From Alphaproteobacteria bacterium (GTDB taxonomy: Bacteria; Pseudomonadota; Alphaproteobacteria; Micavibrionales; CSBR16-224): DNA of 32,116 nt. The translations under genes and the position numbers were made by a program. The stretch's first letter is position 1; every line of letters begins with the position of its first letter. Under the pieces are notes generated by a model that saw nothing but the letters and a program-made list of their open reading frames with translations, made no database searches and was not told the origin of the DNA. This document shows positions 12,472 to 30,351 of this stretch, piece after piece. The stretch covers positions 1 through 32,116 of the forward strand of contig JAJFGX010000095.1 of assembly GCA_021775895.1 (NCBI GenBank), given 5' to 3'.

Positions 12472-13512
12472 ATGGCAGTACTTAATAAAAATGAAATGTT
12501 AGAAAAAGCAATTAAAACAGAAAACCTAGAATTACTTAAAAGTGTTTTAGAAGATGCTGAAATAGACGATCTAGCTTTAGGAGAAAAGAAAGAACATCCA
12601 TTATTATACTTATCCAATAATACAGAAGAATTAAATTTGAGTGAGGTTTTTACTATATTGCTATTAAATAAGTTTGTTGAGAGTGGCATGGATTTACTTT
12701 CAAGGGAGCATGATAAAGCTCCAACATTGGCAGCAGAGGCACTTGCTACACAGAAATTATCATGGCAGGAAAATATATTCTTGATGGTGAATGCTCTTCA
12801 TCAGTCTTTAACTGATATTGAAAGTGATCCTGATAGTTTAGTGCAGGAAATAGCAGATGTGGCACTAGAGAATTTTCAAAAGAGTTTTAATCAGGGTGTA
12901 TATAAAAATCCTTTCTATGATATGAAACTTATGTTGAGGTCTTTATCGGCTCTGCCTAAAAATACTGAAGTGCCAGAATTTGATGTAGTTATGAAAGCCA
13001 TTGATGATGGTCTTTTTGATGTTGAAGATTTAGTCTCTATAGTTTCAAAAAATGAAGAAAAAATAGATGACATACTCAATGGAAAATATGTAGGTGACGT
13101 GCTTATAGAGAAAGATAGTGATGTCGCTAGACTAATCATTGAGAGAATGGAAGAAAAATATGTTGGACAAGAAGGGCCAATAGAGCAAGCAAAAACCATG
13201 ATGCATCGGATTGAGTTTAATGAGCGTAGAGCTCCAGAAGGTGTTAAGTTGCCAAAACAAGGTATGCATATGGGTTTTGCGGGTAATCCTGGAACTCTAA
13301 AAACTACAATGGCTCGTGAATATTCAGATTTACTACACTCTCTTGGTCGTAGTAATGGGAATTTTGTTGAATTAACTCGTGAGAAAATTGTTGGCGCACA
13401 TATTGGAGAAACAGAAAAGAAAATCAATGAGTTCATTGAAAAAGCAATGGGTGGCGTTTTATTCATTGATGAGGTACATAACCTTGTTGTTGATGGAAAA
13501 AAAGATAAGTAA
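12472..13512 (+). CDS. N-terminal fragment of interrupted AAA+ ATPase
   Basis: This 346-residue piece begins at an ATG with AGAGGA about nine bases upstream. Residues 1-215 are helical and show no recognisable domain, possibly a substrate-binding region of ankyrin-like helices. Residues 225-346 are the first half of an AAA+ domain: GNPGTLKT (271-278, Leu where Gly is expected before the Lys), a GAHIGETEKK segment and Walker B VLFIDE (329-334). It ends at the TAA soon after Walker B, so on its own it lacks sensor 1 and the arginine finger and should not be a working ATPase. Confidence 0.65.
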   Translation: MAVLNKNEMLEKAIKTENLELLKSVLEDAEIDDLALGEKKEHPLLYLSNNTEELNLSEVFTILLLNKFVESGMDLLSREHDKAPTLAAEALATQKLSWQENIFLMVNALHQSLTDIESDPDSLVQEIADVALENFQKSFNQGVYKNPFYDMKLMLRSLSALPKNTEVPEFDVVMKAIDDGLFDVEDLVSIVSKNEEKIDDILNGKYVGDVLIEKDSDVARLIIERMEEKYVGQEGPIEQAKTMMHRIEFNERRAPEGVKLPKQGMHMGFAGNPGTLKTTMAREYSDLLHSLGRSNGNFVELTREKIVGAHIGETEKKINEFIEKAMGGVLFIDEVHNLVVDGKKDK

Positions 13513-13521
13513 GATTTTGGT

Positions 13522-14049
13522 ATGCGTGTAGTTGAAGCTTTGGTAGGAGCAATGGAACGTCACCGTGACGAGCTTACAGTATTTGTTGCTGGTTATGAAG
13601 ATGATATAGAAAGGTTTTTAAGCTCTGATCCAGGGCTGCGTGATCGTTTTTCAAGAGTAGTTAGATGTCATGATTATAATGAAGATGCTCTCTCAAAAAT
13701 TATGGACATTCATTTAAAAGAGCATAGTTTAACTATGTCTGACGATATAAAAGAACAAGCAATTAAAAGTGTCATGGAATATAAAGAAAAAGTTGGTGCA
13801 AGAGAATTTGGTAATGGTAGGGTTATTCGTAACTTTGTTGAACAATTGCCAGATTACATGGCAAATCGTGTATGCAATGATAGAGCGATGGATAATGCAA
13901 CACCAGATGAATTAAATGCTGTGCATATAGAAGATGTAAATTCCTATGTGGCTACACTATTAGATGGTGTTAAGAACGTTAAGAATGAGCAAAAAAATTC
14001 TGATGGTCATAGAATTGGGTTTAGAGCAAAGCTAAAAACTCCGGCCTAA
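13522..14049 (+). CDS. C-terminal fragment of interrupted AAA+ ATPase
   Basis: This piece is in the same frame as the upstream fragment, nine bases past its stop. The first ATG (13522) has no ribosome site, so independent translation is doubtful. It carries VFVAGYED (sensor 1 region), the SSDPGLRDRF finger, and the helical lid with a GNGRVIRNFVE segment like the sensor 2 helix of CbbX. The 3' end overlaps the convergent amidohydrolase gene by 18 bases. Confidence 0.55.
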   Translation: MRVVEALVGAMERHRDELTVFVAGYEDDIERFLSSDPGLRDRFSRVVRCHDYNEDALSKIMDIHLKEHSLTMSDDIKEQAIKSVMEYKEKVGAREFGNGRVIRNFVEQLPDYMANRVCNDRAMDNATPDELNAVHIEDVNSYVATLLDGVKNVKNEQKNSDGHRIGFRAKLKTPA

Positions 14050-17849: not shown

Positions 17850-17923
17850 AGCCCATTTTTAAGGCAAAAGTTTTTATATTGCAAACTAAAACTTTCTATC
17901 TTGCTGGCAGGAACAGTTATATA

Positions 17924-19066
17924 ATGAATAAAAACAAACAAATACTTTTTGTATTAAAAAATCATTTCACAAATGATAGTCGTGTTTTGAAAGAAGCAAG
18001 AACTCTTATTTCAGCAGGATATGATGTTACTATACGCTGTTTATGGGATAAAGGACTCGCAAAACATGAAGTTATTGACAATATAAAAATTGAACGCCTT
18101 ATTTACTCTAAAAGAGGTGTAAAGAAATCAGCTGTAAAAAAAGTAACAAAATTAATTGAATATTATTATCAAGTTATTAAAGATTCTTCTAAGTTTTCTA
18201 TTATTCATTGCCATGACTTAGATACTCTACCAATTGGAGTTTTTATGAAGCTTATTAGTTTTGGTAAGAAAAAACTAATTTATGATGCTCATGAATATGA
18301 GACGGAACGACACCATATTCATGGATTTTTGAAATTGCTATTTAAAATTACAGAGCGTTTATTTATTTACTTTGCAAATACAGTTATTACAGTTAGCGAT
18401 GGCATAGCTAATGAGTATGTTAGGTTATATAATATAAAGAAACCTATTCTTGTTCTAAATTGTCCCTCATATAGGAAAGATACACTTGGTAAAGATATTT
18501 TCCGTGAGAAGTTTGGAATAAAAAAAGATCAAGTTATTTTTCTTTATCAAGGTGGTTTATATAAGGATAGAGGTCTAGAAACAGTTTTAGAAGCATTCAA
18601 AAATGTAGAAGATAAAAATAAAGTTGTTGTTTTTATGGGATACGGAGAGTTTGACACTATCATTAAGGAGAATGCAGCTAAGTATGAAAATATTTTTTAC
18701 CATGATGCTGTTAGTCCAGATGTTTTACTAGACTATACGTCATCTGCGGATATGGGTGTATTTTTCTGTAGAAATATTTGTTTAAGTTATTATTATTGCC
18801 TACCAAATAAACTTTTTGAATATACAATGGCCGGTCTACCAGTTATTGTGTCAGATCTCCCTGAGATGAAAAAAATTGTTAATAAATATAATAATGGTAT
18901 TGTAGTGCAAGAGAACCAAGAAGATTTTGTTAAGGCTATAAATAAAGTAAGCTTTAAAGATATTAATGATTATAAAAAGAATATATCTAAGGTGAAAGAT
19001 ACTTATAATTGGGAAGAACAAGAGAAAGTTTTGCTTTCTATATATGACGGTTTGGAGGAGCAATGA
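17924..19066 (+). CDS. Glycosyltransferase family 4
   Basis: The 380-residue GT-B protein begins at the ATG 17924 (AGGAA about ten bases upstream); a TTG at 17879 in frame is less likely. The N-terminal domain has FTNDSRVLKEARTL and HCHDLDTLPIG, followed by YDAHEYETERHH, a pattern of GT4 enzymes acting on surface glycans. The donor domain has GYGEFD and PNKLFEYTMAGLPVI with the conserved Glu. It is the first gene of the plus-strand polysaccharide cluster, facing away from yidD. Its stop overlaps the start of a 25-codon frame in an ATGA. Confidence 0.87.
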   Translation: MNKNKQILFVLKNHFTNDSRVLKEARTLISAGYDVTIRCLWDKGLAKHEVIDNIKIERLIYSKRGVKKSAVKKVTKLIEYYYQVIKDSSKFSIIHCHDLDTLPIGVFMKLISFGKKKLIYDAHEYETERHHIHGFLKLLFKITERLFIYFANTVITVSDGIANEYVRLYNIKKPILVLNCPSYRKDTLGKDIFREKFGIKKDQVIFLYQGGLYKDRGLETVLEAFKNVEDKNKVVVFMGYGEFDTIIKENAAKYENIFYHDAVSPDVLLDYTSSADMGVFFCRNICLSYYYCLPNKLFEYTMAGLPVIVSDLPEMKKIVNKYNNGIVVQENQEDFVKAINKVSFKDINDYKKNISKVKDTYNWEEQEKVLLSIYDGLEEQ

Positions 19067-19140
19067 AAATTAGTTACTTAATTCATAGCTTTCTTAGGCT
19101 TAATTTTAAACACACTATAAAATCCGATGGAGTCAATTAA
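19063..19140 (+). CDS. Short 25-residue frame between two glycosyltransferases
   Basis: An ATG overlapping the previous stop (ATGA, 19063-19066) opens 25 codons ending in TAA at 19138-19140, immediately before the next ATG. The first residues, MKISYLIHSFLR, look like the beginning of another glycosyltransferase. It may be the remnant of a deleted gene or a coupling peptide that hands ribosomes to the next gene. Existence of a stable product is unproven. Confidence 0.3.
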   Translation: MKISYLIHSFLRLNFKHTIKSDGVN

Positions 19141-19938
19141 ATGCCAAAAAAAATTTATATCCTTATTCCAGCCTATAATGAAGAGGCATCTTTAGCAGAA
19201 TTACTAGAGGTCGTGCATAATGAGGCTAAAAAACAGTCTTGGGATTATAAAATTATAGCTTGTGATGATGGCTCTTCTGACAAGACACAAGCAATTCTAA
19301 AGAAGTCACAAAAGAAATATGCCTTAGATATTATCACTCATAAAATTAATCGTGGGTTGGGTGAGACAGCAAGAGATCTTTTTGAAAAAGTTGCACTAGA
19401 AGCGAACGATAATGATGTTATTCTGCGTGTTGAAGGTGATAACACTCACAACCCATCTTATATGACTGATTTGGTTAATAAAATTGATGAAGGATATGAT
19501 GTTGTTGTTGCATCTAGGTTTGTTGATGGCGGAGGACAAACAGGTTTAAATAAAAAGAAAACTTTTATTAGTAATTGTGCAAATTTATTTATGAAGTTCT
19601 TTTTTCCGATTAAGGGGTTTCGTGAATATTCATGTGGTTTTAGGGCATATAGAGCTAGCATTATTAAAAAGTCTATTAAATTCTATGGCAATAATTTTAT
19701 TCAGCTTAAAGGTTTGGGCTTTACATGCACTTTGGAGAAGCTTGTAAAGCTTAGAATTTTAAAAGCTAGATTTGCCGAAGTGCCATTTGTTCTACAATAT
19801 GATAAAAAAATCAGTTCTAGCAAAATGGTAGGTAGTATTACAATGTTGGGTTACATTGTAATGGTTATTGTTTATTATTGGCCATGGGGTGGTTGGCGTA
19901 CAGGTTACGGTCAAAAGCTCAAACAAGAATCTATATAA
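19141..19938 (+). CDS. Glycosyltransferase family 2 (DPM1/GtrB-like)
   Basis: The 265-residue GT-A enzyme has the GT2 pattern: LIPAYNEEASL (8-18), CDDGSSDKT (41-49), the DxD-like EGD (98-100) and VVASRFVDGGGQTG. The C-terminus has one hydrophobic stretch (about 237-252) that could anchor it. Such enzymes transfer a sugar from a nucleotide donor to a lipid carrier or growing glycan at the inner leaflet. GGAG lies nine bases before the ATG. It is 17 bases upstream of asnB. Confidence 0.88.
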   Translation: MPKKIYILIPAYNEEASLAELLEVVHNEAKKQSWDYKIIACDDGSSDKTQAILKKSQKKYALDIITHKINRGLGETARDLFEKVALEANDNDVILRVEGDNTHNPSYMTDLVNKIDEGYDVVVASRFVDGGGQTGLNKKKTFISNCANLFMKFFFPIKGFREYSCGFRAYRASIIKKSIKFYGNNFIQLKGLGFTCTLEKLVKLRILKARFAEVPFVLQYDKKISSSKMVGSITMLGYIVMVIVYYWPWGGWRTGYGQKLKQESI

Positions 19939-19955
19939 TTTAAGGTAATGATTTT

Positions 19956-21875
19956 ATGTGTGGTATTTGTGGAATATCATCAGCTAATATATCAGTTAAT
20001 GATAGAAATATTGTAAAAAACATGATGGATACATTGTATCATCGTGGCCCCGATGGTGATGGAATATCTTATGGGCATGACTTTGTATTTGGACACCGTC
20101 GTTTAGCAATTATAGATATAGATCATGGCCAGCAACCAATTGCCTCTGAAAATGGCAGATATACTCTTACTTATAATGGAGAAATTTATAATTATATAGA
20201 GCTGCGTGATGATTTAAAGAAGCGTGGGGTTAACTTTAGAACAAATTCTGATACTGAAGTTTTGTTGCAATTATTAATTCATGATGGAGTAAAAGCTCTT
20301 GATAAATTAATTGGTATGTACGCCTTTGCTTTTCATGATGGAGAAACAGGGCAAGTTATATTGGCAAGAGATGAGTTTGGTATTAAACCTCTTTACTATA
20401 CAATAACCGATAATGGTTCGTTAGTTTTTGCATCTGAAATTAAAGCAATATTAAAACACCCATCAGTTAAAGCGGTTAGATCAAATGATGGATTGATGCA
20501 TTATTTGACTTTTCAGTTATGCCTTGGTGATGGAACACTGTTCTCTGGTATTAAGAAATTGAAACCAGGGTTTTATATTCTTTTTAATGCTAAAAACACT
20601 AAGGATATTAAGCAACAGAAATATTGGGACTGCGAGTTTAAAATTGATGAAGTCCATACTGAAAGTTATTTTCTTTCAAAGCTAGATACGTTACTTGAAG
20701 ATAGTATTAATCTGCAACTTCGTAGTGATGTTCCTTTAGGAACTTATCTTTCTGGCGGTGTAGATTCAAGTTTGATTACAGCCATTGCAGCAGGACAGTC
20801 AGATAATAAAATCTCTAGTTATCATGGACGTTTTGCGGAAGGTAATGATTATGATGAATCTGAATATGCTAAAATGGTTGCAGACTCTGCAAGTGCTGAA
20901 TATAAGGAAGTTGTACCAACGGCAAAAGATTTTGTTAGCTACCTACCAAAATTAATTTATCACATGGACGAGCCAGCCGCAGGGCCTGGATTATTCCCTC
21001 AATATTGTGTGTCAAAATTAGCTTCTGATAATCATGTTAAAGTTATTTTAGGTGGGCAAGGTGGCGATGAGATTTTTGGTGGTTATGCTCGCTATGTTGT
21101 AGGGTATTTAGAGCAAGCTCTTAAAGGTGCAATATTAGAAACACAAGAAGAAGGGCAGCATCTTGTAACATTATCATCTATCATTCCTAATTTGCCACTT
21201 TTGCGTCAATATGTGCCAATGATGAAGCAATTTTGGAAGAGTGGCTTGTTTGAACCCATGGATTCAAGGTATTTTAAATTGATAGATAGATCACCAAATC
21301 TTGCTCATATGCTTGAATCTGGTGTTATGAGCGAGGTTGATAAAGAAAAAATATTTGAAGATTTTAAATTAGAATTTAATTCTCCAGATACTCAATCATA
21401 TATTAATAAAATGACTTATTTTGATTTAAAAACATTACTTCCTGCTTTATTGCAGGTTGAGGATCGTATGAGTATGGCTGTATCACTTGAATCTAGAGTT
21501 CCTATACTTGATCGTAGGATTGTTGATTTAACTACGACCATTCCACCAGCTATGAAGTTTGCAGGGGGTAAAACTAAATATCTTTTGAAGAAAATATCAG
21601 AGAATAAGTTGCCACAAGAAGTGGTTAATCGTAAAGATAAAATGGGTTTTCCAGTCCCTTTGAAAGAATGGATGGAAAAAGGTATTGTAAGAGACTTTGT
21701 AAGTGATACATTGCTAAGTAAAGCATCAAAAGAACGTGGTATATTTAAGCCATCTGCATTAGAAATGTTAATTGATAAAGAAACAAAATTTGGTAGAGAG
21801 CTTTGGGGTGCTTTGTGTTTAGAGTTATGGCATCAGATTTATATTGATAAAACAATGTCTTTTGATAAAAGATAA
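19956..21875 (+). CDS. asnB: Glutamine-hydrolysing asparagine synthase-like amidotransferase
   Basis: The 639-residue protein has both AsnB domains. The N-terminal class II glutaminase begins with MCGICGI (catalytic Cys2) and continues with YHRGPDG and NGEIYNYIELR. The synthase domain has the PP-loop SGGVDSS (266-272) for adenylation. In surface-glycan loci such proteins usually amidate carboxyl groups of uronic acids rather than make free asparagine; which applies here is inferred from location. Length and motifs are normal. It sits in the middle of the plus-strand cluster, seven bases before the next gene. Confidence 0.92.
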   Translation: MCGICGISSANISVNDRNIVKNMMDTLYHRGPDGDGISYGHDFVFGHRRLAIIDIDHGQQPIASENGRYTLTYNGEIYNYIELRDDLKKRGVNFRTNSDTEVLLQLLIHDGVKALDKLIGMYAFAFHDGETGQVILARDEFGIKPLYYTITDNGSLVFASEIKAILKHPSVKAVRSNDGLMHYLTFQLCLGDGTLFSGIKKLKPGFYILFNAKNTKDIKQQKYWDCEFKIDEVHTESYFLSKLDTLLEDSINLQLRSDVPLGTYLSGGVDSSLITAIAAGQSDNKISSYHGRFAEGNDYDESEYAKMVADSASAEYKEVVPTAKDFVSYLPKLIYHMDEPAAGPGLFPQYCVSKLASDNHVKVILGGQGGDEIFGGYARYVVGYLEQALKGAILETQEEGQHLVTLSSIIPNLPLLRQYVPMMKQFWKSGLFEPMDSRYFKLIDRSPNLAHMLESGVMSEVDKEKIFEDFKLEFNSPDTQSYINKMTYFDLKTLLPALLQVEDRMSMAVSLESRVPILDRRIVDLTTTIPPAMKFAGGKTKYLLKKISENKLPQEVVNRKDKMGFPVPLKEWMEKGIVRDFVSDTLLSKASKERGIFKPSALEMLIDKETKFGRELWGALCLELWHQIYIDKTMSFDKR

Positions 21876-21882
21876 AAGTTAG

Positions 21883-23211
21883 GTGACTATTATTCTGAAT
21901 CAACAGCAATATAATTATATTATTAATGCAGGTAAATTGCGTTATTGGTCAAAAGAACATGGGAACAATCTTGTTTCTGAACTGCCAATTCCTGTCACAA
22001 ATAAAAATTTCAAATCAAAATTAATAGAAATTTCTTTACCAAGCTGGGCTGAAGATTTGGGCGCTTATGAAGGAAATATAATTCTAGTTGATGAATCTTG
22101 CCTGTTAGATGGAGCAAAAGAAAACTGGCAATTAGTTGATTGGTGGGCAGCGGCTTTCCATCATCTTAATGCAACAACTGAGCGTCTTTGGGAGCAAGAA
22201 AATGGGACTATACACTCATACTCTATGCGTTTAAAAACTGTAGATAGTCGTTTATTTGATTATGCTTGGGTAAATAGAATTTTCTTATTCCTACGACGTT
22301 GGGCAGCTAAAGAAGCTGGCAAAGATGAAGATGATATTTTTGGTGCATTACCTGCTCCACGAATTGATCTTACTCATGATGTTGATTATTTAAAGAAAAC
22401 AGTGCCTTTAAGGCTTAAAAAAACGGCATTTGATGGTTTTAATGCTTTGCGTCAATTATTGTCTTTAAAAATAAAGCAATCTATAGCAACCATATTTAAG
22501 GCAATTAAATTCTTTTTTGTGCCTCAAGCTTATTGGTGTATACCAGAAATAATGGAGGTTGAAGAACGTTATGGTTTTTCCAGTACTTTCCACTTTTATG
22601 GCGGGATAAAATCTATACCTAAAAGTTTCAAAAAATGGTTGTTAGATCCATCTTATGATGTAGAGGATACAGCTATAAGCAAGGTTATGATTGATATGAT
22701 TAGTAAAGGTTGGAGTGTTGGCCTGCATCAATCTTTTTTTAGTTGGAGCGATGCTAGCTCTATGAAAGAACAAATTAAAAAACTAGAAAATTCTACGGGA
22801 ACTAAAGCAATACGTTGCCGTCAACATTGGTTGCGTTTTTCTTGGGATAAAACTTGGCAGGCGCAGTTAGATGCTGGACTTAAACTTGATACTACTCTTT
22901 GTTTTAATGATAGAGCTGGATTTCGCAATGGCACTGCCTTAGAATTTACTCCACTGGGTAGTGGTGGAGCTTGCCTTGATATGCGTGCTTTGCCAACGGT
23001 GTTAATGGATTCTCATTTATGGGATTATTCAGATTATGATGAGCAAAAGCGTATAGATGAAATGAAAAGATGGATTGATGAAGTTATTTTTGTGCATGGA
23101 GAAATTAGTATAGTATGGCATCAGCGTGTCTACCATAAAGACTATGGCTGGGGCGGACTATATGAAGAATTACTGGCTTATATGAAAGAAAAAGGTGCTG
23201 TATCAACATGA
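21883..23211 (+). CDS. Polysaccharide deacetylase-like protein
   Basis: The 442-residue protein starts at a GTG. After an unassigned N-terminal ~150 residues it has LTHDVDYL (163-170), the metal/catalytic Asp motif of carbohydrate esterase 4-type deacetylases, followed by FHFYGG, SVGLHQSFFSW and the RCRQHWLRF segment, and a late HQRVYHKD. These match the divergent deacetylase-like proteins found in polysaccharide loci. It would remove N- or O-acetyl groups from a cytoplasmic or lipid-linked sugar, though the substrate is unknown and there is no signal peptide. Its last codons overlap the next gene in an ATGA. Confidence 0.8.
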   Translation: MTIILNQQQYNYIINAGKLRYWSKEHGNNLVSELPIPVTNKNFKSKLIEISLPSWAEDLGAYEGNIILVDESCLLDGAKENWQLVDWWAAAFHHLNATTERLWEQENGTIHSYSMRLKTVDSRLFDYAWVNRIFLFLRRWAAKEAGKDEDDIFGALPAPRIDLTHDVDYLKKTVPLRLKKTAFDGFNALRQLLSLKIKQSIATIFKAIKFFFVPQAYWCIPEIMEVEERYGFSSTFHFYGGIKSIPKSFKKWLLDPSYDVEDTAISKVMIDMISKGWSVGLHQSFFSWSDASSMKEQIKKLENSTGTKAIRCRQHWLRFSWDKTWQAQLDAGLKLDTTLCFNDRAGFRNGTALEFTPLGSGGACLDMRALPTVLMDSHLWDYSDYDEQKRIDEMKRWIDEVIFVHGEISIVWHQRVYHKDYGWGGLYEELLAYMKEKGAVST

Positions 23212-24800
23212 GTACTAACATCAATAATAATATTTATCTTGAACAAGTTTGGGGGAATCTTCCACGGTTACTTGCTTTTTATAATATGGACAAAACCAGT
23301 GAATTTTATGGTGTCGGTGATAGGCAGTTTTGGGGTTGGAAAACAATTGATTTTGCTAATGGCACATTCCAAGGTGCCGCTAATGGACTATCTTTATTGA
23401 TAAAAGAAAACTTATTGCCAGATTTTTTGGAGCAAGATGCAGCATTATCATTCATTGACGCACAGTTTTTAGGAACGTCTTGTTTAATTCGTGGAGATGG
23501 TTCTTTAGAGGAGGCATTCCCTTATGAAGCTTCATTTTGTGTAACAGCTCTAGTTGCATATGATTTATTATCTGCATGTGAAAATTTAAAAAATATAATC
23601 AGTGCTGAGAAAATAGATGAGTATATGGATATTATTGAAAGGCTAATAAAGTTTCTTATGGTCACAGATGAAACGCATGGCTTTATTTCTAATCACCTAA
23701 CTACAGCTTCGCTTGCTCTTTTAAAATGGGCGGAAGTGACTAATGATAAGAGTGCTTTTAAACGTGGTAATATGTTTTTAGAGCGTGTACTCAATCAGCA
23801 ATCGGATGAAGGTTGGTTTTCAGAGTATAGTGGTGCAGATGCTGGATATCAAACATGGACAATGTTTCATATGGCTGAAATATATAGTATGAAATTAGAA
23901 GATAATATAGCGACTGCTATAAAAAATGCTTTAGATAAATCATGCGATTTTCTAAAATATTTTGTGCAGCCAGACGGTTCTTTTGGTGGAATTTATGGGC
24001 AACGTAGTACAAGATTTTATATGCCTGCGGGTTTTGAGATTGTAGCACTAGAAATAAGCGATGCTTTATCGATTGCAGATTTTATGCGTAGTTCTATTGC
24101 TAACAAAACAACCGTAACATTAGATGCGATTGATCAACCAAATCTTATTCCATTTTTTAATGCTTATTGCTATGCTGCTGTTGCTCTGAAAAGAAACAAT
24201 TATTTAGAAAGCAGTGAGGCACTTCCAGCATTTGATAAAAAAGATATTAATAGAAAATATTTTGAAGAAGCAGGGTTATTAATTAATAAAGATAAAAATA
24301 ATTATACAGTTATATCTATTAAAAAAGGCGGTGTAATTCACTCTTATAATTACAAGAATAAAATCACGCATATTGATGCAGGTGCTTTGTATAAAAATAA
24401 AAAAGAAACGTTATACACAACTCAAACCAATAATGAACCGATAAAGCTTAAAGAAGAAGACGGAGGTTTAATTATAGATGCCCCATTAATAAAAATTAAT
24501 AGACCCTATCCAACAGCTTTTAAATTTATGGTATTAAGAGCTTTAAATATTACGGTGATGCGGTGGCGACCTTTGCGAGATTTAATAAAAAAGATGCTTG
24601 TTGCATTATTAGTTTCTGGTAGAAAACCTTCAGGAGGCATAAATAGACGAACCATTAATTTTTCTGAAAACATTGCAATTAAAGATGAAATTATCAGCAG
24701 TGAGAATTTAAATTTAGAAAAAGTAAATGATACTCAAACATATTACGGTACACATATGGCAAGCCAAGGTTATTGGCAAAAGCAGGACATGGGAAAATGA
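23208..24800 (+). CDS. (Alpha/alpha)-toroid-type protein of the polysaccharide locus, function unknown
   Basis: The 530-residue protein is coupled to the deacetylase gene by an ATGA overlap. About residues 1-330 are a series of paired helices with aromatic-rich motifs, including GVGDRQFWGWKTIDF near residue 36, DEGWFSEYSGADAGYQTW near 200 and PDGSFGGIYGQRSTRFYMP in the 250s, like six-hairpin glycosidase or lyase toroids. The rest (about 360-450) looks beta-rich, as in heparinase-type lyases, then ends in a basic helix. No signal peptide or certain catalytic residues are visible. Position between a deacetylase and an aminotransferase suggests glycan modification or editing. I cannot name the family with confidence. 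Confidence 0.72.
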   Translation: MSTNINNNIYLEQVWGNLPRLLAFYNMDKTSEFYGVGDRQFWGWKTIDFANGTFQGAANGLSLLIKENLLPDFLEQDAALSFIDAQFLGTSCLIRGDGSLEEAFPYEASFCVTALVAYDLLSACENLKNIISAEKIDEYMDIIERLIKFLMVTDETHGFISNHLTTASLALLKWAEVTNDKSAFKRGNMFLERVLNQQSDEGWFSEYSGADAGYQTWTMFHMAEIYSMKLEDNIATAIKNALDKSCDFLKYFVQPDGSFGGIYGQRSTRFYMPAGFEIVALEISDALSIADFMRSSIANKTTVTLDAIDQPNLIPFFNAYCYAAVALKRNNYLESSEALPAFDKKDINRKYFEEAGLLINKDKNNYTVISIKKGGVIHSYNYKNKITHIDAGALYKNKKETLYTTQTNNEPIKLKEEDGGLIIDAPLIKINRPYPTAFKFMVLRALNITVMRWRPLRDLIKKMLVALLVSGRKPSGGINRRTINFSENIAIKDEIISSENLNLEKVNDTQTYYGTHMASQGYWQKQDMGK

Positions 24801-26041
24801 TACCTCGTTTTTCTCCAGATTATAGATGGACAGATTTCTTGCAGTGCTTTATGCCTGTTAAGAAAAATGCTGTAGAGAAACTAGAGCAAGAATTTGCTTT
24901 AAAAGCCAAGCATGACAATGCTATTTCTTTTAGATATGGACGCACAGGGCTTTATTATTTGCTAAAGGCATTGGGGCATAAAAATAAGAAGATTATCATG
25001 CCTAGCTACTCTTGTGTGGTGGTTGCACATGCTATTGTCATGTCGGGAAATATACCTGTGTTTTTAGATAGTGCAGATAAGTCTTTTCAGCCTTTACCAT
25101 CAGCATATATAACCGCAATAGAAGAAAACATTGAAGATGCGGTAATGATTATACCTACACATTTATTTGGTATAGTAGAGGAAACACAAGAGCTTTATGA
25201 GACAGTAAAAAACAAATATCCCCATATTTTTATTTTACAAGATTGTGCACATGGTTATTTTTGCCAAGATAGCGGGCAAGAAGTTGTGACAAGCTGGGGT
25301 GACGCTGCTTTATTTGGTATGAATATTTCTAAATTAGTTAATAGTGTTAAGGGAGGCATGTTGACGCTAAAAGATGCTGAGCTTGCGAATGAAATCCGTA
25401 AATTATCCGCAAAAGATGAAATAAAAACTAAAAATAGTTTAGTGTCTAGGCTCTATGTTTTAGCAGTGTTCTTTGCATTTATGCCTATGTTTTACTCACT
25501 AGTTTATTGGCTGCAAAGAAAAACAAATATATTATCCTCTGAAACTAAATATTATCAAGATGATGTTATTGAGCTACCCAAAGATTTCAAGTTAAAGATG
25601 AATAGTTTTGAGGCAAGTATAGGTCTATCATCATTAGCTAGGTATGAGCAAAGAGTGAAGAATCGTCAAACTATAGCCAATATTTATACAGATTTACTAC
25701 GACCCTATAAAGAAAAAGGGCTTTTACAATATGCTGAACCACAAGCGGGTTACACATGGAGTCACTTTCCCGTTGTTATTAATGATTTAAAAAACAGAGA
25801 TAAAATTATTAATGCTCTTGAGCAAAATCACGGCATGGAAATAGGACTTATTGTTGACTACAGCATAGCTGACATGGAAGCGTATAAAAAAAGAGGGCAT
25901 TTAACTTGCCTAAATGCAAAACATACATCAGAGCATATTATTAATTTGCCATTGTGCCTAAAGGAACATAAATGTTTCCCAACTTTTTTATCTTCTGATA
26001 CAAAAATTAAAGAAATTACATGTTGCTTTAAAGAGATTTAA
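24797..26041 (+). CDS. DegT/DnrJ/EryC1/StrS-family sugar aminotransferase
   Basis: The 415-residue PLP enzyme is started at ATG 24797, which overlaps the preceding stop in ATGA; an earlier TTG (24773) is less likely. It has PSYSCVVVAHAI (69-80), LQDCAHGY (147-154, Asp149 for the pyridine nitrogen) and the cofactor lysine in MNISKLVNSVKGG (Lys179). The family transaminates 3- or 4-keto nucleotide sugars to amino sugars. The active-site segment deviates from the usual SFxxxKxxxxGEGG (no Glu before the last Gly pair), so it belongs to a divergent branch. No 4,6-dehydratase that would make its substrate is in the window. Its 3' end overlaps the convergent formyltransferase by 14 bases. Confidence 0.85.
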   Translation: MIPRFSPDYRWTDFLQCFMPVKKNAVEKLEQEFALKAKHDNAISFRYGRTGLYYLLKALGHKNKKIIMPSYSCVVVAHAIVMSGNIPVFLDSADKSFQPLPSAYITAIEENIEDAVMIIPTHLFGIVEETQELYETVKNKYPHIFILQDCAHGYFCQDSGQEVVTSWGDAALFGMNISKLVNSVKGGMLTLKDAELANEIRKLSAKDEIKTKNSLVSRLYVLAVFFAFMPMFYSLVYWLQRKTNILSSETKYYQDDVIELPKDFKLKMNSFEASIGLSSLARYEQRVKNRQTIANIYTDLLRPYKEKGLLQYAEPQAGYTWSHFPVVINDLKNRDKIINALEQNHGMEIGLIVDYSIADMEAYKKRGHLTCLNAKHTSEHIINLPLCLKEHKCFPTFLSSDTKIKEITCCFKEI

Positions 26042-26639
26042 TATATTTCTGAGCAGCAACTACTCCTGCCTTTGAAGCTATAAGTTCATTCTTCCAGTAT
26101 GGTTTAGATGGCTCAAGCAAGTAAGGCTCTGTAAGTATTGTAGAGCCAGTATCAATGGATTTCTCCATAATATGAATGGTTGCTTCTTGCTTATAGTCTT
26201 TATTCTTTAGGGCATTACTAATACTGCCTAAGCCTATATAATCAGGAAGTCGTGCATAGTGAACATTTATACAATTCACATTTGATAATATATTTTCTTT
26301 AACTAGCAAGCCCCCACGAAAAGCTATAAGTGTTTTTATTTCAGGGTGTTTTCTAATGATATCTGCAAGTTCATCATTACTTTTAACTGTGTTATCAAGA
26401 GTACATTGAACATTTCTCATTAATATAAATTTTTGCACATATGATGAAATAAGTTGTTTAAGAAGCCAGAAAAATTTAATTCTTCTTTTTCTAAGTAAAC
26501 GTATAATTTTAGATAAAGATACTGAACTATCACCTACAATATAAAATTGATCTCTATTAAATGGTGCCAATACTTCATTGGCTAGTATTTTTGTATTGGT
26601 ATCATTAGAGATAAGAAAAAGTATTGAAGGTTTATTCAT
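26028..26639 (-). CDS. Formyltransferase family protein
   Basis: The 203-residue protein has the core of 10-formyl-tetrahydrofolate-dependent formyltransferases: INVHYARLPDYIG (124-136, with Asn125 and His127) and SIDTGSTIL (161-169, Asp163), matching the Asn-His-Asp triad. The N-terminal half is weakly conserved. Methionyl-tRNA formyltransferases are about 100 residues longer, so a sugar N-formyltransferase for an amino sugar fits, especially opposite a DegT aminotransferase gene. Substrate is inferred. It probably shares a transcript with the methyltransferase 20 bases upstream. Confidence 0.8.
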   Translation of the reverse strand: MNKPSILFLISNDTNTKILANEVLAPFNRDQFYIVGDSSVSLSKIIRLLRKRRIKFFWLLKQLISSYVQKFILMRNVQCTLDNTVKSNDELADIIRKHPEIKTLIAFRGGLLVKENILSNVNCINVHYARLPDYIGLGSISNALKNKDYKQEATIHIMEKSIDTGSTILTEPYLLEPSKPYWKNELIASKAGVVAAQKYIKSL

Positions 26640-26659
26640 TAGTAGAATTTTGTCCTGAA

Positions 26660-27418
26660 TTAATTTTTTGTTGTTATATATTTTATAATAAGATTTGTAT
26701 CAAATGGTAAAAATGAAAATGGCCATGATTGATGTTCTAGTTTTCCACGCTTTTTAAATTGTTTTATAATTTCATCACATGTATTTGGGTGTTCCCAACA
26801 TACAATTTTTATTAAGTCTATATCATAGTCCCTTTTAACTGCCCGCTTTGAAGTAATAAAACGACCAAGTCCCCAAGCTAACCCTCCCTCTGTTGGTATA
26901 GCACCAATTAGTTTGCCACCTGGTTTAAGAACACGGAAAATTTCATCTAGCCAACTATCAAGTGGGTATAAATGCTCCATAGAATAAAAACTAAACATGA
27001 CATCAAGACTATTATCCTCAATAGGAAGCTTTGATGAATAAGCATCAATTTTATGACAGGTTGAGCTTATATTACACTTTTTTAAGTTTTCTTGTACAGT
27101 TGGAAAAAAGTCAGAGCAAACATCAAAAGCATGATAGTGTTCTGGCGTTCCATTAAAATAATTGGTGTGATAACAACCACCTGGCCCAATTTCACCTATG
27201 GTTTTATTGTTAAGGTTGACTGTTGAAATTACTTCATATCCAGCATCATTAATTTTTGCCTGAACAGAGCCTTTACGTTGAGTAAGTTCGTATACTTCCG
27301 TATAAAGTGAAAGCCACTTTTCCCAGTCAGGGTCATTGTCCCAAGCCTTTTGACCGTATTTCTCTCGATCTCCAAAAAGTTGTTTATTGATAAATTTAGG
27401 TAAAATTTTTCTTAACAT
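26660..27418 (-). CDS. Class I SAM-dependent methyltransferase
   Basis: The 252-residue protein has motif I EIGPGGCYHT (76-85), the acidic strand-4 region LDVMFSFYSMEHL (138-150) and LKPGGKL (164-170) of class I methyltransferases. An open frame continues to 27691, but that part overlaps the oppositely oriented flippase gene and reads as shadow, so I start at the ATG 27416-27418; an ATG at 27464-27466 is an alternative. No ribosome site distinguishes them. It probably methylates a sugar of the surface glycan; acceptor unknown. It diverges from the flippase across about 100 bases. Confidence 0.8.
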   Translation of the reverse strand: MLRKILPKFINKQLFGDREKYGQKAWDNDPDWEKWLSLYTEVYELTQRKGSVQAKINDAGYEVISTVNLNNKTIGEIGPGGCYHTNYFNGTPEHYHAFDVCSDFFPTVQENLKKCNISSTCHKIDAYSSKLPIEDNSLDVMFSFYSMEHLYPLDSWLDEIFRVLKPGGKLIGAIPTEGGLAWGLGRFITSKRAVKRDYDIDLIKIVCWEHPNTCDEIIKQFKKRGKLEHQSWPFSFLPFDTNLIIKYITTKN

Positions 27419-27518
27419 GGCAATACACACATTTTTTATTAAATAAAAAGCTTCCCAAGTGAACATATTATGAATGATAATGCAAGACTGAATATTTTTA
27501 CAATTAAACAATAATGAA

Positions 27519-28829
27519 ATGTATAAAAAATTACTTACAGATTTGTCGATATATGGTTTAGGTGCCATTTTTATTAAATCGCTAGCCTTTTTTACTCTTC
27601 CTATATACACAAGGATTTTTTCTCCAAGTGAATTTGGAGTAATTGAGATGTTTGCAACTATTGGCGGGATATTATCTATATTTATGACCATGGGACTTGA
27701 TAGCGCTCAGAGCTATTATTTTATGGAGGCAAAAAATAAAAAAACTCGCGATATTAAAGAAGTTACAACTTCAATTCTGGGGTTAAGAATTGTTTTAGGT
27801 ATTGCTGTTATCGGTGTTGTAAGTATTTTATCTCCTTTTATTTTAGACTTTGCTTTTGAAACTAAACTGCCGATAATATATCTCTTAATCGTCGCAAGCT
27901 CCATATTCTTTGCAAATCTTATATCGCAGAGCTTAGAGATTTTTAGATTACTGTATAAACCATGGCACTATATAGCACTTAGCTTTGGGCAAACTATTCT
28001 TAATATAGGGTTGATATTATATTTTACTTATATTGAGAATATGGGTATATATGGCTACTTTTTGGGCAGTTTAATTGCCTCATTTATTGTTATGCTTATT
28101 GGCTGGGTTGTCACAAGAAATTATAGGTACTTTAGGAGTCTAAATATAGATTTGTGGAAAGATTTTTTGAAGTTTGGCGCTCCTCTAGTTCCTGCGGGCT
28201 TTGCAATTTGGTTTATGCAGGCGGGCGATCGATGGTTTGTGATGAAAATACTTGGCAGTCATGATCTTGGTATTTACTCGGTAGGGGCAAAATTTGCGAT
28301 GCTTATTGCATTGGCTGTTGAAATATTTAGAAAAGCATGGTGGCCAATTGCTATGGATATAATGCATAAACCAGAAGCTAGTGAGTTTATTCGAAAAATT
28401 AGTTTTTGGTATATTTTACTTGGTAGTATCGGCGCTGTAATTTTGGCTCTGATTGCACCGTATTTAGTAAAGTTTTTAGTTACGGAAGAATACCACGAAA
28501 GTTATAAACTAATAGGCATACTTGGTTGGAGCGGTATTTTTTATGGCTTTTATTTAATAAGCGAGCTTGGGATATTTAAAAGTAAAAAGACATATCTTTC
28601 AATTATTACAAATTTTACTGGGGCTTTACTTAACTTGCTTTTGAATTATTTTCTAATACAAATATTTGGTCTTATTGGTGCCGCCTATGCAACTATAATA
28701 TCATTGATGATGGCCAATATTGTGGGAATGAATATTAGCAATAAGTTTCTACATGTAAAATGGCAATGGTTTAGTTATGCTTTATTTATTTCTACATCAC
28801 TGGCTATTATTACTTATTTAGGGAGATAA
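27519..28829 (+). CDS. Wzx-type polysaccharide flippase (MOP superfamily)
   Basis: The 436-residue integral membrane protein has about twelve hydrophobic segments and the start typical of O-antigen/capsule flippases: LSIYGLGAIFIKSLAFFTLPIYTRIFSPSEFG, split over the first helix. It would move undecaprenyl-linked oligosaccharide across the inner membrane. The next gene follows after four bases. It diverges from the methyltransferase gene, and its upstream gap (27419-27518) is where promoters for both should lie; I see no convincing consensus there. Confidence 0.85.
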   Translation: MYKKLLTDLSIYGLGAIFIKSLAFFTLPIYTRIFSPSEFGVIEMFATIGGILSIFMTMGLDSAQSYYFMEAKNKKTRDIKEVTTSILGLRIVLGIAVIGVVSILSPFILDFAFETKLPIIYLLIVASSIFFANLISQSLEIFRLLYKPWHYIALSFGQTILNIGLILYFTYIENMGIYGYFLGSLIASFIVMLIGWVVTRNYRYFRSLNIDLWKDFLKFGAPLVPAGFAIWFMQAGDRWFVMKILGSHDLGIYSVGAKFAMLIALAVEIFRKAWWPIAMDIMHKPEASEFIRKISFWYILLGSIGAVILALIAPYLVKFLVTEEYHESYKLIGILGWSGIFYGFYLISELGIFKSKKTYLSIITNFTGALLNLLLNYFLIQIFGLIGAAYATIISLMMANIVGMNISNKFLHVKWQWFSYALFISTSLAIITYLGR

Positions 28830-28833
28830 TTAC

Positions 28834-30351
28834 TTGCAAAAGAAAATTCAGAAATTTATAGATATATATGGTTACAAAGGGTTAATACCTTTGTTCTTTC
28901 ACCCAGTTCTTGTGCTTCCTCTAAATCTATATGCTTTAATTGGTAGTTTAATTAATATTATAAAAGTATTAAGCAAAGGCGATTGGCATTATCTTAGTGG
29001 GAACACAATGCATACGGCATACAATAATTTATTTTATTATATTCAGAGCTTAAATATTCAGAAATTTGGTAGGTATGGAACTAGTTCTTTTGTTGGAGTA
29101 GGACGTGATTTTTCTTTGAAAAATTGGTTTCATACCATGCCTCTTGCATTAAAAGCTCAGTCATATTTTGGGACTGTAATGATGTTGTTTTTTGCAATGA
29201 TAGTTTGGTCTAGCTCTTTATTTTTTATTGCAGATTTTACTTGGCAAAATGCCTTAATAATTATGCTTACTTGTAGTTCCGCTTACTTTTTTGCAAATTT
29301 TATTGATGGACAAAATTATAATGTTTTAGCTTGGATGTTTTTGCCACTTTCTTTCTACGCTCTTTTTGAACAGAGTTATTTTTTATATGGTTTAATTGTA
29401 TTTGCAATGTCATTCTTTAGTTTCACTGCTATTTTTATATTTGGAATAATAACATTTATTTTTGGTTTATATTGGCAAGATTTTTATATTATTTTAGCAA
29501 CAGTTCCTGCAACTATTAAAGTTGCAATTCCTGTGTTAATTTCTCTCAAAGAAAATGCATTGAATAAAATTGGCGGGGCAGTTGGGGTTCATAATAAAGT
29601 TAAGTATAGAAGGCCAGGTAAAAAAATAAATATCTTATTTCTATACTTTCTAGCTTTAAATTCTTTATTTATTGGGTGGTATTTTCTTAAATTTGGCATA
29701 GATGAGTATTTTATTTTGCAAATGATTGCTCTGCTACTGTTTATAGTGAATTATATATTTCTTAGATTTGCGGATAGTCAGACTATTTATATAATATTTT
29801 TATCGGTTTTTTGTTTTTCGTTATTAAATAAAGAATTGGATTTAATTACGGCTATAATTTATGCCTTATCTATAAATCCATTTTATTTTATTCTTGGTTA
29901 TCGCCCAGCAACAAAAGTGATTAGCCCAGATATTAGGAAACCTATTAATACTAAAGAATTAATAGATTATATTGCTAGTGCGGCTAATAAAATGGGGGAG
30001 AAAAAAAGAGTTCTTTTCCTATTTAACAATCCTAATAATCAATACAATAAAATATTTGATGGGTATAGGGTGATAGTTGAACCTATCTCATATGCATTAC
30101 AGAAAAGTGGCTCAACCATATTCCCAGATTGGTATTACTGTTTTGAAAACAACAAAGAAAGTGACACAGACTTAATTTGGTGGAATAAAGATGCTGAGTT
30201 ATTAAAAGAAAGCATAAAATTATTCGATGTCGATTATATACTTACATATGAAGGTATCTTTGAGAATGAAGAACCAGACTTTCTAAAAAAGGCAGAGGAA
30301 GTTTATATTGAACACATAGATAAGAATATAATATTTTATAAAATCTATTAA
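28834..30351 (+). CDS. Multi-pass membrane protein, candidate GT-C glycosyltransferase or Wzy polymerase
   Basis: The 505-residue protein starts at a TTG with GGGAGA nine bases upstream, inside the end of the flippase operon. It has about ten hydrophobic segments (roughly 15-375), an early periplasm-type loop (WHYLSGNTMHTAYNN) and a soluble C-terminal domain (about 385-505) with no known motif. Size, topology and position next to a flippase suggest an oligosaccharide polymerase or GT-C transferase; no family-defining motif was recognised, so this is inference from context. Its stop lies five bases from the convergent tdh stop. Confidence 0.6.
   Translation: MQKKIQKFIDIYGYKGLIPLFFHPVLVLPLNLYALIGSLINIIKVLSKGDWHYLSGNTMHTAYNNLFYYIQSLNIQKFGRYGTSSFVGVGRDFSLKNWFHTMPLALKAQSYFGTVMMLFFAMIVWSSSLFFIADFTWQNALIIMLTCSSAYFFANFIDGQNYNVLAWMFLPLSFYALFEQSYFLYGLIVFAMSFFSFTAIFIFGIITFIFGLYWQDFYIILATVPATIKVAIPVLISLKENALNKIGGAVGVHNKVKYRRPGKKINILFLYFLALNSLFIGWYFLKFGIDEYFILQMIALLLFIVNYIFLRFADSQTIYIIFLSVFCFSLLNKELDLITAIIYALSINPFYFILGYRPATKVISPDIRKPINTKELIDYIASAANKMGEKKRVLFLFNNPNNQYNKIFDGYRVIVEPISYALQKSGSTIFPDWYYCFENNKESDTDLIWWNKDAELLKESIKLFDVDYILTYEGIFENEEPDFLKKAEEVYIEHIDKNIIFYKIY

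Follow-up and report, generated by a model that had tools for sequence, protein, structure and literature searches.

A toroid-type protein of bacterial glycan cassettes as a candidate cytoplasmic C5-epimerase of lipid-linked uronic acids

Few enzymes are credited with uronate C5 chemistry on bacterial glycans. Human DS-epi1, which carries out such chemistry on a glycan during biosynthesis, is a luminal protein with a DUF4962 domain and a metal site, and the residues proposed for it, in the sections of PMC8006597 that treat them, are His205, Tyr261 and Tyr473. The archaeal D-glucuronyl C5-epimerase Agl32, as described in parts of PMC13308652, works on an oligosaccharide that is linked to lipid and yet to be flipped, and consists of a helical domain alone, for which the closest solved structure is cellobiose 2-epimerase; the same text quotes H184, H243 and H374 as the catalytic histidines of cellobiose 2-epimerase 3vw5. 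An (alpha/alpha) toroid joined to an antiparallel beta domain is the plan of PL33 and heparinase II/III-type lyases, and PL33 uses N238, Y291 and H444 in catalysis (PMC11848413, passages on the active site). For Porphyromonas gingivalis, the pathway passages of PMC7468200 describe a 2,3-diamino glucuronamide made through WbpA/B/D/E, the AsnB-type protein WbpS, which makes the uronamide, and VimE, a putative deacetylase thought to remove the C2 acetyl of 2,3-diacetamido-glucuronic acid.

Here we describe a protein from a 32,116-nucleotide stretch of an alphaproteobacterial genome (the window) that has features in common with each of these systems. The protein, TOR (530 residues, 23208-24800, plus strand; from the open reading frame list and an AlphaFold2 model), consists of an (alpha/alpha) toroid domain (residues ~5-334, 23220-24209; model helices and a VIA-align aligned range of 5-334) and a beta domain (residues ~345-530, 24240-24797; structure models and VIA-align). 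It lies in a glycan cluster at 17879-30351, in which the plus strand encodes a GT4 protein, a GT2 glycosyltransferase (19141-19938; closest NCBIfam model, scored below its cut-off, that of an undecaprenyl-phosphate sugar transferase), an AsnB/WbpS-like amidotransferase (19956-21875; Pfam, NCBIfam), a VimE-like deacetylase (DEAC, 442 residues, 21883-23211), TOR and a DegT-type aminotransferase (24797-26041; PF01041, E = 9.2e-42). The 3' part of the cluster holds formyltransferase-like (26028-26639; Pfam and neighbour tblastn) and methyltransferase (26660-27691; Pfam) genes on the minus strand, followed on the plus strand by a Wzx-type flippase (27519-28829; PF01943, E = 3.3e-20) and a membrane protein; because the methyltransferase frame overlaps the next gene, its true start is probably internal. 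DEAC scores 60.9 bits against the VimE model NF053580 (E = 8.4e-17), below the cut-off of 440, and by this sequence comparison the two are related, not equivalent. The preliminary description of this DNA had placed TOR in translational coupling with a deacetylase-like gene, and the sequence bears this out: the DEAC stop and the TOR start overlap in an ATGA (23208-23211). In a second ATGA (24797-24800), the TOR stop overlaps the ATG of the aminotransferase.

Two other genes of the window deserve mention. The membrane protein beside Wzx (28834-30351, 505 residues, assigned by eye), which reaches the cut-off of no Pfam or NCBIfam model, is kept next to Wzx in a sister genome (81%) and in two further loci, L015 and L017 (26-28%); it may serve the cassette as a polymerase or a membrane glycosyltransferase. 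At 12472-14049, an AAA ATPase lies in one frame that is interrupted by an in-frame TAA (13510-13512), with PF00004 before the stop and AAA_lid_6 after it; a recent nonsense mutation or an assembly artefact could account for this.

To assess the conservation of TOR, we investigated its distribution and gene neighbourhoods. Of 55 near genomes, 3 carry the gene, the window's own being one of them, as do 5 of 385 genomes sampled from the class. A pattern scan of named genomes returned relatives in 60 loci, two of which (L029 and L030) are probably the same records as the contigs G045 and G001. These relatives fall in Pseudomonadota, Bdellovibrionota, Planctomycetota, Acidobacteriota, Nitrospirota, Campylobacterota, Chloroflexota, Bacillota, Cyanobacteriota and other phyla; plasmid records yielded a single relative, in Phyllobacterium, and phage records none. 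All 60 loci are free of stops across the matched region, so TOR is not a chance reading frame.

Neighbours were counted by tblastn, as the gene caller errs in GC-rich loci, in 64 loci with a TOR match (65 were taken, and L070 had none at the cut-off). Among the 17 closest loci (at least 34% identity to TOR), every one encodes DEAC, with DegT and AsnB in 15 each, GT2 in 11 and the methyltransferase in 10; the pairing of deacetylase and toroid therefore holds in other glycan loci, a point on which the preliminary description had wanted evidence. The 47 more distant loci include AsnB in 22, DegT in 5 and DEAC in only 4, which indicates that part of the family does without the deacetylase. TOR starts within -76 to +41 bases of the upstream stop in 21 of 22 loci, an approximate range since several starts are the ends of open frames. 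In the class sample, DEAC was found in 18 and TOR in 5 of 385 genomes, with both in 3 (Fisher p = 0.0008), although in one of these three the DEAC match is weak and on another contig. A clade of 13 rows made up solely of deacetylase-linked loci (support 100/95) spans several phyla, which points to movement of the cassette between lineages. The GT2-AsnB-TOR-DegT run is present in two loci of ultra-small bacteria (L026 and L028; Paceibacterota, Parcubacteria), where tblastn recognized no deacetylase, and a Rickettsia endosymbiont of Bryobia (L041) has kept methyltransferase, GT2, AsnB, deacetylase, TOR and DegT.

An AlphaFold2 model of TOR built from a full-length alignment of 53 rows, the set used for all residue counts below, is confident (mean pLDDT 94.4, pTM 0.94) and shows an all-helical domain followed by a beta domain whose modelled fold spans residues ~345-497, in agreement with the toroid plus beta-rich, lyase-like plan proposed from the sequence at the outset. 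Whole-model Foldseek matches included PL33 (E = 1.2e-5), GH127, PL17, DS-epi1, chondroitin AC lyase and heparinase III, and DS-epi1 had the highest TM-score by query (0.51, at 11% identity) among the 50 matches listed. TOR thus has the toroid and antiparallel beta plan of the heparinase II/III and PL33-type lyases and the two-domain plan of DS-epi1. The beta domain modelled alone (pLDDT 85.2) had no Foldseek match at E <= 0.001, and its best VIA-align rows were beta domains of carbohydrate enzymes, with PL26 (Z = 9.3, rmsd 4.6, 129 aligned) and PL33 (Z = 6.9, rmsd 4.2, 125 aligned) both near the noise level of the tool.

The toroid compared alone gave a different ranking. Sugar 2-epimerases came first in VIA-align, with cellobiose 2-epimerase 3vw5, an (alpha/alpha)6 protein, at Z = 25.1 (rmsd 3.0, 304 aligned), and GlcNAc 2-epimerase proteins aligned with TOR at P = 2.3e-5 in hhalign; the toroid fold itself is that of the N-acylglucosamine 2-epimerase superfamily. 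These matches, and the presence of beta-D-glucuronate dehydratase 9nwf among the Foldseek matches listed, raise the prospect that this scaffold serves some other activity in TOR: sugar isomerisation of a different kind, as in a 2-epimerase-like enzyme, hydrolysis or dehydration. We consider this improbable. The 2-epimerases use several catalytic histidines (3vw5; PMC13308652), whereas no histidine column is invariant across the 53 rows of TOR, the best being 163 and 516 (45 rows each) and 254 (42 rows); furthermore, TOR has an extra beta domain and its two-domain plan matches lyases and DS-epi1.

At the level of sequence, the family is distant from those now catalogued. All structural matches listed by Foldseek and VIA-align have at most 16% identity to TOR, and scans of TOR against Pfam and NCBIfam, including the curated models of heparinase II/III and PL33-type lyases, gave no match at E <= 1; eight family members scanned yielded three weak Pec_lyase matches (best E = 0.015). 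A sequence search of the PDB returned only chance-level matches, GRB2 chains among them, and a profile search returned complement C4 toroid chains, again at chance level (best E = 0.011). A literature search on cytoplasmic lyases and C5-epimerases of operons like this one, made at the level of titles and abstract openings and covering few subscription journals, turned up no paper seen to describe the TOR family. TOR is therefore new to the literature and databases searched, on a scaffold that is already known, and the expectation that it lacks a close characterized match has held. We also considered and rejected identity with the GlcE-type C5-epimerases, as TOR has no match to PF06662 (C5-epim_C) at E <= 1; that domain was not found in the window's own genome or in 190 genomes searched.

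Eleven residues are invariant in all 53 rows: Gly35, Arg39, Gln55, Asn162, Trp203, Glu206, Tyr207, Asp211, Tyr214, Arg266 and Asp309. Several of these coincide with a lyase-type site. In an hhalign comparison with 30 heparinase-type proteins, collected with the Hepar_II_III_N model, TOR aligned at P = 3.1e-6, with Asn162-His163 (23691-23696; His in 45 rows, Gln in 8) on N238-H239 of the NNH motif and Tyr214 on Y292 of the SPTY motif in the protein from locus L075. Tyr214, which aligns with the lyase catalytic tyrosine, closes the motif EGWF.EY.G.D.GY (residues 201-214, 23808-23849), which also contains the invariant Trp203, Glu206, Tyr207 and Asp211. The three heparinase-type proteins that have both motifs (NNH and SP.Y) gave the same register (P = 8.8e-5). 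They are the only three of the 30 to do so, and the aligned columns hold Asn in 6, His in 6 and Tyr in 8, so most sampled alphaproteobacterial heparinase-like proteins are without the site as aligned. An alginate-lyase profile (P = 0.0057) placed the SNH of TOR on NNH, and a GH88 profile gave P = 0.0046; in controls, P was no better than 0.08 for seven unrelated families, 0.22 for reversed columns and 0.18 for eight shuffles. The spacing between the paired Asn and Tyr is 52 in TOR and 53 for N238 and Y291 of PL33 (PMC11848413, active-site passages), and the sole observation bearing on a counterpart of PL33 H444 is the column of His516 in the beta domain (24753-24755), with His in 45 rows, Tyr in 7 and Phe in 1. 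By analogy with the lyases, His163 (45 of 53 rows) and Tyr214 are candidate counterparts of the histidine and one tyrosine of the triad proposed for DS-epi1. PL8 lyases use an Asn/His/Tyr/Arg tetrad in which the arginine lies ~54 residues past the tyrosine. The invariant Arg266 (24003-24005) of TOR sits 52 residues past Tyr214.

A fold and an Asn/His/Tyr set in common with polysaccharide lyases (PL33 itself uses N238, Y291 and H444; PMC11848413, same passages) are what a cytoplasmic lyase would also present, one that works by beta-elimination, either to correct or detach lipid-linked glycans that are wrong or stalled or to leave an unsaturated sugar at the end. Because lyases use the same residues, elimination fits the sequence equally well. 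We nevertheless regard a lyase as unlikely, since cutting the product within its own biosynthetic operon would be wasteful and since, in the window and in close relatives, the gene lies among deacetylase, methyltransferase and aminotransferase genes and not among degradation genes. TOR further differs from the PL33 and heparinase II/III-type lyases in having a cationic helical hairpin, no signal peptide, no Pfam match, no invariant histidine in the beta domain and a place in biosynthetic operons.

The absence of a signal peptide, noted in the preliminary description, was upheld across the family: no row of the 53 contains an N-terminal stretch of 19 residues with hydropathy above 1.6. Within the beta domain, predicted helices at 437-448 and 454-470 interrupt the fold in the AlphaFold2 model and form an inserted cationic, hydrophobic hairpin (residues 432-474, 24501-24629; charge and hydropathy). 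Its net charge is positive in every one of the 53 rows, from +3 to +11 with a median of +7. In 50 of 53 rows, no non-overlapping window of equal length matches the hairpin in both positive charge and hydrophobicity. We propose that it is a putative docking element on the inner face of the inner membrane. A basic membrane hairpin and gene overlaps with enzyme genes would also suit a non-catalytic scaffold or a glycan-length sensor at the membrane, yet the Asn, Tyr, Arg, Glu and Asp residues at lyase-like positions are invariant in all 53 rows across phyla, which makes such a role very unlikely. The structural role that had initially been kept alongside enzymatic ones is, in its pure form, disfavoured, since these invariant residues are polar and of types that enzymes use catalytically.

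The substrate is suggested by the setting. In the window's own genome, a second contig (C77) encodes side by side a nucleotide-sugar dehydrogenase (TIGR03026) and a UDP-GlcNAc 2-epimerase (TIGR00236), both over cut-off, and in the same run a Gfo/Idh dehydrogenase, a DegT aminotransferase and a hexapeptide acetyltransferase. Named by similarity and order, this run has the gene content of a WbpA/B/D/E/I set. Parts of a Wbp-type set also lie near TOR in L013-L016, L018, L028, L031, L052, L071 and others, that is, in only part of the loci, and L028, from the ultra-small bacteria, has the full set. Gene types similar to those of the P. gingivalis pathway thus accompany TOR, whereas the pathway passages of PMC7468200 name no TOR-like gene.

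The reading that best unites a lyase-type site, a biosynthetic uronic-acid cassette, residence in the cytoplasm and a membrane hairpin is that of a peripheral enzyme on the cytoplasmic side of the membrane, which would modify a uronic acid or uronamide within a lipid-linked oligosaccharide. Its most likely activity is C5-epimerisation, and we give this epimerase reading a probability of roughly 0.4. Catalysis itself, epimerisation over elimination, the substrate and the lipid-linked stage are all points that we infer. In the proposed mechanism, the cationic hairpin would hold TOR at the inner membrane face by the glycosyltransferase, the WbpS-like amidotransferase and the VimE-like deacetylase, where it would meet a 2,3-diamino-uronic acid from Wbp enzymes. 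Tyr214 would abstract the C5 proton while Asn162 and His/Gln163, with Arg266, would hold and neutralise the carboxyl or amide; return of a proton on the opposite face would give an L-gulo or L-ido sugar, ahead of flipping of the unit by Wzx. Should AsnB act on this sugar beforehand, amidation would remove the carboxylate, which counts against an epimerase. Precedent for the step comes from Agl32, whose activity on a lipid-linked glycan is reported in parts of PMC13308652; the analogy is with the step, Agl32 and TOR having been compared by description only, and kinship of the two is no part of our claim. The epimerising or editing role on lipid-linked intermediates that had been suggested from the sequence fits the conserved Asn/His(Gln)/Tyr/Arg set, as well as the cationic hairpin and a gene context of Wbp/VimE-like type, and is to that extent supported.

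A more specific form of the epimerase reading is that TOR founds a new bacterial family of C5-epimerases whose substrates are 2,3-diamino-uronic acids carried on undecaprenyl at the inner membrane face, with inversion from D-manno to L-gulo and from D-gluco to L-ido, and that it belongs to a deacetylase-epimerase-aminotransferase cassette that has moved between phyla; we hold this as a somewhat doubtful proposal. If an epimerase it is, the TOR family would provide candidate enzymes for the L-configured uronic acids of O-antigens, capsules and exopolysaccharides, and a scaffold best known from degradation would have been turned to synthesis within the cell. The cassette offers a defined gene set for functional tests.

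Heparinase II/III-like proteins are common in the class, being present in 48 of 115 genomes, and NNH is missing as aligned in most of the 30 sampled. The window's own genome encodes one on another contig (C103; PF16889 and PF07940, L174:7874-9493), where it comes after RsmB-like and ribulose-phosphate epimerase-like reading frames, named by eye.
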